Virus record (IMG/VR): IMGVR_UViG_3300021168_000016
Location: 1-64,000 of that record
Strand: one strand, 5' to 3'
Origin: a virus
DNA length: 64,000 bases
The notes below the pieces were generated by a model. It was not told the origin of the DNA. It saw only the letters and a list, made by a program, of their open reading frames with translations, and did no database searches. Position numbers and translations under genes: made by a program. Positions 54,507 to 63,160 of the stretch are shown here, piece after piece. Each line of letters starts with the position of its first letter. Position 1 is the stretch's first letter.

Positions 54507-54602
54507 TTAATATTTAACAACGACGCAGAGGAGGATGTAGAACGCTCTTGCTCTGCTAATAAAGATGTATCTTACTCCTATTAGGATGTTGTTTCCTGTC
54601 AT
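54507..54602 (-). CDS. Possible 31-residue membrane peptide
   Basis: ATG at 54,602 with AGGAGG eight bases upstream, encoding MTGNNILIGVRYIFISRARA then FYILLCVVVKY. Hydrophobic, basic, stop followed by a hairpin. A gene-like arrangement in a gap between plus-strand genes, but the short length makes the call uncertain. Toxin-like size only. Confidence 0.35.
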   Translation of the reverse strand: MTGNNILIGVRYIFISRARAFYILLCVVVKY

Positions 54603-55684: not shown

Positions 55685-55698
55685 CAGGATTATAAAGA
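55681..55698 (+). repeat. 18-bp direct repeat, left copy
   Basis: CTGACAGGATTATAAAGA also occurs at 56,046-56,063. Each copy ends a gene and supplies the ribosome-binding region of the next. Together they bracket two small genes, hinting at their insertion or duplication. Confidence 0.5.
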
Positions 55699-55716
55699 AA
55701 TAAGGGTTATAAAGAA

Positions 55717-55890
55717 ATGAAAGAGGAAATTAGACAAGCATTTGAGGCTTCCTATCCACTAGCTAATTGGGAGATAAAACAGCTCGGTGAGCCTGTAGCT
55801 CGCGCTATCATGGATCAGCATACAAAACGCGAGTGGGAAGCCTTCCAAAAAGGTTGGGAGGCAGCTAAAGAGAGGTTTATAAAGAAATGA
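55717..55890 (+). CDS. Small helical protein
   Basis: 57 residues, MKEEIRQAFEASYPLANWEI then two further charged helices (HTKREWEAFQKGWEAAKERF). Its stop overlaps the next ATG (ATGA). This helical pattern is common in small phage accessory proteins, with no assigned function. Confidence 0.6.
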   Translation: MKEEIRQAFEASYPLANWEIKQLGEPVARAIMDQHTKREWEAFQKGWEAAKERFIKK

Positions 55891-56060
55891 AAGTATTCTT
55901 GCTTATATTCATTGGAGCTAGCCTATATATCAGTTGGGTGTTCTTCTGGATGGGCAGAAATGTAAATCATAACTGGCCATTTCTCCCATGCTTTATCATG
56001 GGATTTGTCTTCCCAATCTCTCTAGCCATTGCTATAGCAATTAAGCTGACAGGATTATAA
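55887..56060 (+). CDS. Two-span small membrane protein
   Basis: 57 residues: KVFLLIFIGASLYISWVFFW span, a short NVNHNW loop, and a second span CFIMGFVFPISLAIAIAI. Translation coupled to the previous gene by ATGA. Function unknown. Confidence 0.6.
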   Translation: MKVFLLIFIGASLYISWVFFWMGRNVNHNWPFLPCFIMGFVFPISLAIAIAIKLTGL

Positions 56061-56063
56061 AGA
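56046..56063 (+). repeat. 18-bp direct repeat, right copy
   Basis: Identical to 55,681-55,698 (CTGACAGGATTATAAAGA). Confidence 0.5.
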
Positions 56064-57280: not shown

Positions 57281-57709
57281 ATGCCACTAATCGCGAAGCA
57301 AAAAGAAAGAAGTATGAGTCCGCAGAAAGCTACAGCCATCACCTTGAAGATGCAAGGACTTACATATGAAGAAGTAGCGGAAAGAATGAACTGCACTCCT
57401 GCAAATGTTTCGCAATTGTGTCGGCCATCTAAGAACATTGCTTGGGAACTCAAAAGGAAAGCTAAATTCAGATGTCAGCACTGTAATACACCGATAAGAA
57501 CTGGGCATGTCCATCATATTGATTACAACGTTTCAATAGAGATATTCAATTCTATTTCGAATCTACTGTACTTATGTGATGCATGCCATAGCAAGTTACA
57601 CTGGGAAGGAGAGAAAGGAGTTAAATGGAATAAACAGGAAAGAATTAGATGGAATGAACAGAGGGTAAGAAAAGCAAAGCAACTTTATTATGTTAATAAT
57701 CATTATTAA
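57281..57709 (+). CDS. HNH endonuclease with N-terminal helix-turn-helix
   Basis: 142 residues. HTH-like segment (about 13-45; SPQKATAITLKMQGLTYEEV, then CTPANVSQLCR). HNH core: C65-x2-C68, GHVHHID with H78/H79, C99-x2-C102-H103, and a basic tail (KQERIRWNEQRVRKAK). Compact, freestanding; a mobile nuclease or repurposed DNA-binding protein. AGGAGG lies ten bases before the ATG; an internal ATG (residue 12) is also possible. A perfect inverted repeat GTTAATAAT/ATTATTAAC spans its stop. Confidence 0.82.
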   Translation: MPLIAKQKERSMSPQKATAITLKMQGLTYEEVAERMNCTPANVSQLCRPSKNIAWELKRKAKFRCQHCNTPIRTGHVHHIDYNVSIEIFNSISNLLYLCDACHSKLHWEGEKGVKWNKQERIRWNEQRVRKAKQLYYVNNHY

Positions 57710-57867
57710 CTTACTTGGGATTATGCAAATCACTTTGCAAAACAAAGAACTTTATAAAAAGGTGTTGAAAACAAAGGTAATTCTCCAGATGCAAAGGGAC
57801 GTGCGATAGGGTAAACTGGTAACGGTGTCCGTCCTGAGCAAAACGCGATGCAAGGCGGGTGGTGGGC

Positions 57868-57883
57868 CGAGCGCCCCCGCTCG
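57868..57883 (+). promoter_or_regulatory. GC-rich hairpin in a 215-bp leader
   Basis: CGAGCG with CGCTCG around a C4 loop, within a GC-rich leader (57,710-57,924) that otherwise holds a TGCAAA/TTTGCA inverted repeat and no gene. Precedes the small gene at 57,925. Confidence 0.4.
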
Positions 57884-57924
57884 CAAAACCTTCCGTGTCA
57901 ACAAAATTCTAAAGGAGACAATGA

Positions 57925-58062
57925 ATGAAGATACCAACAATAAAAGGTTGGAACAAAGTTCATTTAAACTATCACCGAATGCCGGCAGAAAGGACGGCGG
58001 ACAAACAAACCAAAGTCGACTGGAGAAAGGTAGTCAGGAAACAATTCTACAAATCACGCTAG
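57925..58062 (+). CDS. 45-residue basic protein
   Basis: MKIPTIKGWNKVHLNYHRMP then a basic C-terminus (DWRKVVRKQFYKSR). AGGAG lies seven bases before this ATG; a second ATG four bases earlier leads into a long frame of odd composition that I reject. Basic, nucleic-acid-binding type. It is the last coding unit before the structured region. Confidence 0.55.
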   Translation: MKIPTIKGWNKVHLNYHRMPAERTADKQTKVDWRKVVRKQFYKSR

Positions 58063-59180
58063 ATACGATACGACATAGTGGGGTTGGGATTCTATATTCC
58101 AACCCCAGTTTGATGTATCGCATATACATCAGTGGAGATAGGAATAGCGCGAGCCGGTGGACATCACCTTATACCGGTGGACAGGATGGGATGTCACATT
58201 CCTTCGGGAATGGGGCGCAACAGATAGGACAATCCAGCTATACCGAATTAGACCATAGCAGTCTAATCAACCCATGTGGATCCTATCGCAAACTAACCTC
58301 CTGTGGCCCAAAAATCTACGGTAGCGGCGTTAAAGACTTCAAATTTAACAGCTTACCCAACCCGCTACTATCAAAAGTCGATGCCAGAATCGAAAGACGG
58401 TCGACGGGCGATCAAGACCAAAAGAGAGTGGCACTCCTATCGATAAGGACCCAAAAGCGGAGCAATGGGAAGGCTAGCAGAATATGCGAAATGGCTAGCC
58501 AGACAGTCTTAACAATCAACAAAAATCACTGTCAATTCCCCGCCCGGCGAAGTAGGCATCAAGTTCATATCTATATGAACTTGGTCTAGTCAAGAGGCCA
58601 GAAGCCAATTTGACCCAAACAATCCTTGCTGTATCCCAGGTGTCCATCAACATAGAGTTGAACGGCAGTCATTAAATCAGCGTGACAGGTTGATTTAATG
58701 GTTGCTGTTAAGGAAGACGGGGACGGACAGAGCTTAACTGGATTGGAGTAGGTCATCTGAGGTGAATCTGCAAGGCAGAAGACAACGCGAAGTTGTCGAT
58801 ATTACTGCTCATCAAGATAATACAACTTGATGGCTATGGGTAGACTAGGCGTTATGTCCAAAATCCAACGTCACATGGATTTAGTCCACAAAGACGAGAG
58901 AGAACCGAATGGAGTAGTTACTCCATACGTGAGAGACCCAATTTGTGGTATGTGACGTAAGATTTTGGTGTAGCCGAGGCGCAAATACATCCAGCAAGAG
59001 TCGATAGAGTTGGTAATGTAGTTAACAACGCTAGACCTTGAAATCGCATGTGACATTTCTTGAATAATCGACAGCGGTCTAGTATTTGGAATGTCGATAG
59101 CTAGAGAGAAAGAGACTAATCGATTACATGATTTGGTGGATGGATTTGCTCCTTACGATACACCAAGCTCTTGAAAACAA
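58063..59180 (+). ncRNA. Candidate large structured noncoding RNA (about 1.1 kb)
   Basis: No credible gene, but many perfect hairpins: 58,079-58,107 (9 bp), 58,111-58,131 (8 bp), 58,197-58,212 (6 bp with a C-UUCG-G tetraloop), 58,247-58,267 (7 bp), 58,321-58,368 (7 bp enclosing a 6-bp hairpin), 58,472-58,500 (7 bp), 58,560-58,583 (10 bp), 58,670-58,700 (10 bp), 58,781-58,797 (6 bp), 58,810-58,832 (7 bp), 58,858-58,968 (8 + 9 bp across a 2x2 internal loop, containing a 7-bp and another 7-bp stem), and 59,031-59,082 (7 bp). Such density is far beyond that of coding DNA here. Size and phage context recall GOLLD and ROOL RNAs; no sequence match is claimed. Strand follows flanking genes. Confidence 0.55.
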
Positions 59181-59206
59181 ATCAGATTGTACTGGAGGAT
59201 AACAAT
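59181..59206 (+). repeat. Repeated translation leader (copy 1)
   Basis: ATCAGATTGTACTGGAGGAT then AACAAT directly precedes the ATG at 59,207. Near copies occur at 59,686-59,709 and 60,519-60,542, and a shortened form at 61,505-61,522, each holding the GGAGG ribosome site. Confidence 0.7.
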
Positions 59207-59632
59207 ATGAAAACACGGACGGTAGCTGAGTACATCGACAATTGCAGTAGCTGGATAGATTCAGACAAAAAGAAGCATGTGCAAGAACACGTCAAGAAGC
59301 TATGGGAACAATTCTGGCAAATGGCAGGGATAAAGGAAGGCGAAACGATCACAGAAGTTGGCGATTTCGACTGCATGGGATCGCAAGAAGCGGAAATCAA
59401 GGCTAGGAAGATCGCCGGTTGGACAGAATGGCTTGGTGAAGAGTCGACCTTAATCTGGAAAGATGGTCGGCTAGTGGCTGAGGTGATATGCTGCCGAGGG
59501 AGCTGGGACATGGTACTGAATGGAAAGAAGTATTACGAAAGTCTGAGGGAGCCGGTCTGGGTGGAAAGAGAGGTATGGCTGGCCGAAGTCAATGCACGGG
59601 CAGCTCTGTCAGGACTTGACAAATTGTCGTAA
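59207..59632 (+). CDS. Hypothetical protein
   Basis: 141 residues from the ATG at 59,207 (GGAGG in the repeated leader). Charged, Trp-rich (EQFWQMAGIKEGETI; GWTEWLG; WKDGRLVAEVI). No membrane segment or zinc motif. First gene after the structured RNA region. Family not recognised. Confidence 0.65.
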   Translation: MKTRTVAEYIDNCSSWIDSDKKKHVQEHVKKLWEQFWQMAGIKEGETITEVGDFDCMGSQEAEIKARKIAGWTEWLGEESTLIWKDGRLVAEVICCRGSWDMVLNGKKYYESLREPVWVEREVWLAEVNARAALSGLDKLS

Positions 59633-59682
59633 TCAGCGACATAGAGTGGATGGCTAACCAGCGTCCACTACTTGATGTTGAT
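59632..59682 (+). repeat. Intergenic hairpin element A
   Basis: ATCAGCGACATAGAGTGGAT ... TCCACTACTTGATGTTGAT. An AGTGGA/TCCACT stem with conserved flanks (GCGACATAGA and TGATGTTGAT) that themselves can pair partly. Same flanks at 61,445-61,497; the last element (63,091 on) is related. Confidence 0.65.
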
Positions 59683-59709
59683 TACAAACAGATTGTATTG
59701 GAGGATAAC

Positions 59710-61235: not shown

Positions 61236-61445
61236 ATGAAAGTCAAGGAGTTAATCAAGCATCTCGAAGCCATTGACAACAATGACTTAGAAGTCGTTCT
61301 TGTCAGTGACGTAGAAGCATCTCCGGAAGTAATTAAGCAGCCTGAGATGTCCCATGAATTCCACCATCGTGAAGAAAAGATTATATTTGTCGGATTTACT
61401 GACAAAGCAGTCTTCATTCACGCCGAAGCTCACGCGATTTATTAA
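61236..61445 (+). CDS. Small phage protein
   Basis: 69 residues, beginning MKVKELIKHLEAIDNNDLEV, the layout of a widespread family of small phage proteins (helix, then beta strands with acidic residues). Function unknown. Confidence 0.62.
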   Translation: MKVKELIKHLEAIDNNDLEVVLVSDVEASPEVIKQPEMSHEFHHREEKIIFVGFTDKAVFIHAEAHAIY

Positions 61446-61497
61446 TCAGCGACATAGAGTAGACAAACGTGACAGTTGTCTACTCTTTGATGTTGAT
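61445..61497 (+). repeat. Intergenic hairpin element B
   Basis: ATCAGCGACAT then a perfect AGAGTAGACAA/TTGTCTACTCT stem and TTGATGTTGAT. Its flanks equal those of element A while the stem sequence differs, a sign of structural rather than sequence conservation. Confidence 0.68.
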
Positions 61498-61522
61498 ATA
61501 AATCAATCAGATAGGAGATGTT

Positions 61523-62582: not shown

Positions 62583-62780
62583 ATGCATGTTACACAAAGC
62601 GTTGACCGTGCTCCAATCACCAACATCACAATCAATTGCGATTGTGATGATTTACGTATGGAGACATTTTCTCTCTACGTGGAGATGTTGAATATATATG
62701 ATGTTTGCGCCGCTGCTATTCCTGAATGGAGAAGGAGTCAACGCAGACATCAAAATCCAAATCCTAACTGGAAGAACTAA
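62583..62780 (+). CDS. Hypothetical small protein
   Basis: 65 residues, MHVTQSVDRAPITNITINCD then a C-terminal RRSQRRHQNPNPNWKN basic tail. Weak ribosome site (GAGG then TCTGGCC). Function unknown; could be spurious. Confidence 0.4.
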   Translation: MHVTQSVDRAPITNITINCDCDDLRMETFSLYVEMLNIYDVCAAAIPEWRRSQRRHQNPNPNWKN

Positions 62781-62781
62781 A

Positions 62782-62830
62782 ACATCTGCGACATAGATCA
62801 GCCAGTCTGATATAGGCTGGCTGATGTTTG
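62782..62830 (+). repeat. Intergenic hairpin element C
   Basis: CTGCGACATAGATCAGCCAG with CTGGCTGATGTT. Perfect ATCAGCCAG/CTGGCTGAT stem with the shared GCGACATAGA flank. Confidence 0.6.
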
Positions 62831-62863
62831 TTTCATGTGTTAAATCCAATAGAGGAGTTGTAA

Positions 62864-63090: not shown

Positions 63091-63160
63091 CTGTTGTCGA
63101 TCGATGACAAAAGGCTGATGCAGAATATAGCATCAGCCTTTTGATGTGGATCGTCAATCA
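63091..63160 (+). repeat. Intergenic hairpin element D
   Basis: A perfect 13-bp stem AAAAGGCTGATGC (63,109-63,121) with GCATCAGCCTTTT (63,130-63,142), flanked by GTCGATCGATGA and GATGTGGATCG. Related to elements A to C. Confidence 0.65.

Follow-up and report, generated by a model that had tools for sequence, protein, structure and literature searches.

The polycistronic early mRNA of T7 carries five RNase III sites (PMC4858673). A different kind of element, the HK022 put RNA, is located downstream of an early promoter and consists of two stem-loops that lie side by side and together measure about 70 nt (PMC9378689). On a larger scale, GOLLD and ROOL are often found near tRNA islands, which is a frequent rather than an obligatory association (PMC12286853). 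Here, we describe a segment of the virus record IMGVR_UViG_3300021168_000016, which is 125,421 bp long and whose first 64 kb constitute the window (64,000 nucleotides). An earlier note had portrayed positions 58063-59180 as gene-free, packed with nested hairpins, and a candidate giant phage RNA reminiscent of GOLLD and ROOL. A structured and probably untranslated stretch is indeed present, but the segment is not one unit, and about 0.7 kb is left as a candidate. We favor, with a probability of roughly 0.5, a reading of the segment as a composite portion of a rightward operon, comprising a hairpin (A), an unstructured part, and a structured 0.7 kb, with the hairpins acting as processing signals. 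It is not regarded as a single unit because hairpin A, its first and in appearance its strongest element, belongs to a dispersed family and the next 330 nt have no structure beyond chance.

Results

Genome setting of the segment

The ends of the 125,421-bp record carry 202-bp repeats that are 93.6% identical. Leftward genes, the terminase and portal genes among them, occupy most of 0.7-52 kb, rightward genes predominate from about 54.7 kb on, and replication genes are found near 105-122 kb of the record. The segment lies close to where the rightward genes begin; from gene content and order, these probably form an early operon. Its left and right neighbors are an HNH endonuclease gene and a 141-aa gene, respectively (Table 1). 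The 141-aa gene is preceded by a leader with an extended ribosome-binding site, and a leader alignment places similar leaders ahead of 59710 and 60543. At the other end, hairpin A begins where a 45-aa frame stops, and the other four hairpins likewise come after a stop codon. This short frame is probably a real gene, as its start is served by a well-spaced ribosome-binding site, AAAGGAG (duplex energy -8.7), and its codon score of +0.128 per codon is coding-like. As a separate observation, TTATAAAGA occurs immediately 5' of the start codons at 55717, 55887, and 56065 (window 55690-56063), with 6 matches in the window versus 1.0 expected, and is a possible promoter or translation-start motif.

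Table 1. Features in and around the segment (window coordinates). Bit scores and E-values of the hairpins come from a covariance model that was built from copies A-E themselves.
Feature	Coordinates	Strand	Evidence or remark
Candidate divergent sixth hairpin copy	54512-54600	+	13.9 bits; E 1.9 in genome, 0.18 in 12 kb
HNH endonuclease gene	57281-57709		left neighbor of segment
254-aa open frame, judged not a gene	57825-58589	+	codon score, no match of weight
45-aa gene (MKIPTIKGWNKV...FYKSR), probable	57925-58062	+	ends at beginning of hairpin A
Hairpin A	58062-58126	+	65.4 bits, E 1e-12
Gene-free stretch without excess structure	58127-58460	+	z -0.41; 17/60 shuffles fold equally well
Gene-free stretch with strong structure; leader or non-coding RNA candidate	58461-59172	+	z -5.15; 0/60 shuffles as good
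Local helices in 58461-59172, examples	58472-58500, 58560-58583, 58662-58708, 58781-58797, 58810-58832, 58868-58958, 58909-58926, 58988-59142
Leader of the 141-aa gene	59173-59206	+	extended ribosome-binding site ATCAGATTGTACTGGAGGATAAC (motif search)
141-aa gene	59207-59632	+	right neighbor of segment
Hairpin B	59628-59688	+	59.9 bits
Hairpin C	61441-61504	+	71.1 bits
Hairpin D	62780-62846	+	64.6 bits
Hairpin E	63096-63159	+	63.9 bits

Hairpin A belongs, with high probability, to a family of intercistronic hairpins

The recurrence of hairpin A was found by a search for other strong hairpins. Its five copies (A-E) all lie on the + strand between 58.06 and 63.16 kb, and their 5' and 3' arms contain CGACAUAG and UUUGAUGU, respectively, with deviations in E and D. 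The exact CGACATAG together with a near-exact TTTGATGT was observed 4 times versus 0.10 expected, a count reached in none of 400 shuffled genomes. If one mismatch per side is allowed, the arm-motif pair occurs 2.7 times per shuffled genome, which is not rare in itself; therefore, the weight rests upon the exactness of the motifs, the stems, and the positions. The helix is roughly 20-27 bp long, with 18-21 consensus pairs broken by conserved mismatches low down, while the upper stems diverge in sequence and retain their pairing. Changes on both sides affect 13 of 18 pairs, and the covariation score of 0.82 (versus 0.29 in shuffles) was matched in 0/500 shuffles and abolished by sliding the partner, a pairing signal that is partly built in, as the copies had been picked as hairpins. 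Thus, the independent evidence consists of the shared motifs and the constant place. RNAalifold, run unguided, gives the same fold.

That place is indeed constant. Measured from the end of a stop codon, the hairpin model starts at -4 to +8 nt in 5/5 copies, and in all but A the next start codon follows 15-21 nt downstream. Copies B-E directly precede the leader of the next gene, while in the leader alignment hairpin A is followed by the leader-like sequence ATCAGTGGAGATAGGAATAG, which lacks a start codon. We are highly confident that A-E constitute one family of intercistronic RNA hairpins, and this is the best supported of our findings. Covariation had been put forward as support for the stems of a large RNA; the one stem with counterparts for such a comparison is hairpin A, and there the covariation points to an element of a different kind, part of a dispersed family. 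A possible sixth copy is located 2 nt past the stop codon of a 62-aa frame. A genome-wide scan for further hairpins with similar flanks yielded A-E, a tandem repeat at 83.6 kb, and otherwise pairs at chance level. The tandem repeat (record 83580-83802) has a unit of about 110 nt, with copies 74.6% identical, and is made of short units resembling GATAAGAT and GATTTGAT. Beyond this phage, the hairpin model had no match in 52 related loci, and the motif had 12 matches in GTDB genomes, which is about the chance number by our own estimate; the best of these scored 14.4 bits (E 1) with the hairpin model, and none were convincing.

The single orientation of the family and its tie to stop codons fit a role in RNA, which argues against the stems acting as DNA, for example within a replication origin located close to where the divergent gene blocks meet. 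The minimum of the cumulative GC skew does lie a few kb off, at about 51-52 kb, but this is 6-7 kb distant and tracks gene direction, and the segment is devoid of iterons and tandem repeats. We consider a DNA role very unlikely.

The hairpins as candidate processing signals

The hairpins invite comparison with the RNase III signals of T7, such as R1.1. In both cases, lone imperfect hairpins occur in five copies between genes of an early operon, just 3' of one gene and just 5' of the leader of the next. As with T7-type signals, the hairpins form imperfect double-stranded RNA that spans about two helical turns, and they have an intercistronic place in a polycistronic transcript, whose earliness is here deduced from gene order. 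Unlike the T7 sites, they carry arm motifs (CGACAUAG/UUUGAUGU) that appear peculiar to this phage, and their cleavage is a prediction. By this analogy, RNase III of the host, or a similar nuclease, would cut the hairpins, as at the five T7 early mRNA sites, and split a long transcript into separate messages. No recognizable RNase III gene was found in the phage itself, so the nuclease would need to be the host's. We put the odds that A-E are mRNA processing signals at slightly short of even.

The hairpins could instead act as partial terminators, or in antitermination in the manner of HK022 put, and so tune the relative levels of the operon genes. Similar to an intrinsic terminator, each follows a gene and has a U-rich stretch behind the upper stem. 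The upper stems are GC-rich and followed by UUUGAUGU, and a loose terminator scan passes A and D. However, the same scan fails B, C, and E and also flags sites in shuffles. Furthermore, the U-run is short and lies paired within the long lower helix, and both arms are conserved, including GACAUAG in the other arm, for which a terminator would have no need. As for antitermination, put RNAs likewise are hairpin elements that function in early phage transcripts (PMC9378689), but they are paired stem-loops near a promoter, whereas here single hairpins recur at five intercistronic places. A terminator or antiterminator role thus seems doubtful, and we prefer to read the hairpins as processing signals. 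If they are, the phage would have reached a T7-like segmentation of its early transcript by means of a repeated signal of its own; the five copies would be ready substrates for a direct nuclease test.

In the favored composite reading, the transcript remaining after cuts at both hairpin A and hairpin B would consist of a 1-kb untranslated stretch followed by the gene at 59207. Its structured 0.7 kb would then serve as a long leader of the 59207 mRNA, or would be trimmed further into a non-coding RNA that is free of it.

The segment is largely gene-free

The claim that the segment contains no convincing gene was essentially right. The 254-aa frame that overlaps its left half scores as non-coding: it has -0.033 per codon, whereas the called early genes (n=86) have a median of 0.109 and go no lower than +0.030, a comparison that is somewhat biased, as a similar model had served to call these genes. 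Pfam gave no match to the frame and PHROGs none of weight, and hairpin A falls inside it. From 58070 to the gene at 59207, there is no start codon with a ribosome-binding site matching that of most neighboring genes. As a result, about 1.08 kb after hairpin A is without a recognizable gene, the segment is largely gene-free, and 58127-59172 is probably untranslated. The long frame had also been dismissed as having random composition, which agrees with its codon usage but not with its length, as none of 2000 dinucleotide shuffles reached it and chance does not explain it. AlphaFold2 gave a poor model of a 222-aa frame, and a control orphan was equally poor.

The length of the frame raises the question of whether part of the segment is an orphan or decayed protein gene, in frame 57825-58589, that has lost its start after hairpin A. 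Such a loss would accord with the leader-like sequence behind hairpin A and with the lack of excess structure in 58127-58460. Conversely, its codon score is below those of all called genes, neither Pfam nor PHROGs provides a match of weight, it contains hairpin A, and 58590-59172 is without any frame. We therefore consider an orphan or decayed gene improbable.

Folding of the segment

The abundance of perfect stems was borne out. With the span limited to 130 nt, positions 58063-59180 contain 19 perfect Watson-Crick stems of ≥7 bp, compared with a mean of 5.0 and a maximum of 10 in 60 dinucleotide shuffles. The longest are 10 bp, and none are 17 bp; a stem described as a two-level 17-bp one is really an interrupted stem of 8 bp (58858-58865/58961-58968) and 9 bp (58868-58876/58950-58958). 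A reported UUCG tetraloop is present as a C(UUCG)G hairpin at 58198-58211 (ATTCC-TTCG-GGAAT). As a whole, 58200-59180 folds with a z of -5.8. Yet, stems do not fill the segment as had been supposed, because 58127-58460, which begins with the leader-like sequence, folds no better than chance, whereas 58461-59172 is strongly structured (Table 1). The local helices tested within the latter have probabilities of ≥0.9 in all five contexts folded. We give even odds to 58461-59172 being a structured untranslated RNA.

These features also bear upon a trimmed form of the earlier idea, in which 58127-59172, or just 58461-59172, makes a large non-coding RNA that is stable and free, represents a new class, works like GOLLD or ROOL, and is possibly cut from the early transcript at hairpin A. 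The stretch is gene-free and structured, it occupies a gene slot between two leaders, and when folded alone it forms three abutting domains (58133-58867, 58868-58958, and 58959-59172). In isolation, end-to-end closing helices appeared attractive as well, but these outer helices vanish once flanking sequence is included (0.99 to 0.11 and 0.0), and we rejected them. Confident long-range pairs are no commoner than in shuffles (35 versus a mean of 19 and a maximum of 61), and 58127-58460 lacks excess structure. We accordingly consider a free large RNA unlikely, and equally so the specific scheme of an RNA gene at 58127-59172 that sits in a gene slot of the early operon and is cut at hairpin A to give a discrete 0.7-1.05-kb RNA of a class outside Rfam. 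Were the 0.7-kb stretch to exist as a free RNA, the short list of known large structured phage RNAs would grow.

The degree of folding was also compared across the genome. Ranked by mean local z, the segment comes first, by a narrow margin, among 1.1-kb stretches of the 125-kb genome (-2.91 versus -2.88 at 90.5 kb), while among 34 windows of 1.05 kb it ranks second (z -6.5) behind a window at 90.4 kb (z -8.4). This top-folding stretch (record 90400-91450) is mostly protein-coding, with two frames whose products start with a signal-peptide-like sequence, one of them having a protease-family match. Since a coding stretch outfolds the segment relative to shuffles, folding energy is weak and non-specific evidence for an RNA gene, and the structure seen in the 0.7 kb may be of little significance. 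The case shows that folding energy alone can mislead.

Search for known RNA families and relatives

The earlier note had seen no motif that would prove identity with GOLLD or ROOL, and Rfam agrees. The whole genome gave no match at the gathering threshold, and 57600-59300 searched up to E 10 gave no GOLLD, ROOL, OLE, HEARO, or group I/II intron. By eye, GACTA/TAGTC (near 58844 and 58882) had suggested a possible group I core, which was dropped, as no model matched. The segment resembles GOLLD and ROOL in being phage-encoded, of the 0.6-1 kb scale, highly structured, and gene-free. It differs from them in that no Rfam match and no homologues were found, part of the claimed length is unstructured, and no tRNA genes are found in the record; these absences likewise count against a free RNA of that kind.

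A BLAST search of the segment against phages and plasmids returned short chance matches or none, exact and degenerate patterns from it retrieved no relative in IMG/VR, and no homologue of 58127-59172 was found in any collection searched. Relatives of the phage were sought via its terminase, polymerase, and ATPase, which yielded one contig of the same species and otherwise terminases of ≤55% identity. None of the loci of these terminase relatives have the RNA, and three related records that were inspected closely contain no counterpart of the segment. By sequence comparison, the collections searched appear to contain no close relatives of this phage lineage. The second contig of the species, the only other one in IMG/VR (44,154 bp), is ≥99.99% identical where compared. 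Its end falls exactly on position 57830 of the window, shortly before the segment begins, which may reflect chance or a strain-variable junction.

HNH endonuclease matches were also observed elsewhere in the record, in the middle of a QueE-like gene (record 111825-113375) and of a GTP-cyclohydrolase-like gene (record 113415-115058). As a match lies inside both of these adjoining deazaguanine-pathway genes, their sequences suggest that each contains an HNH-bearing intein.
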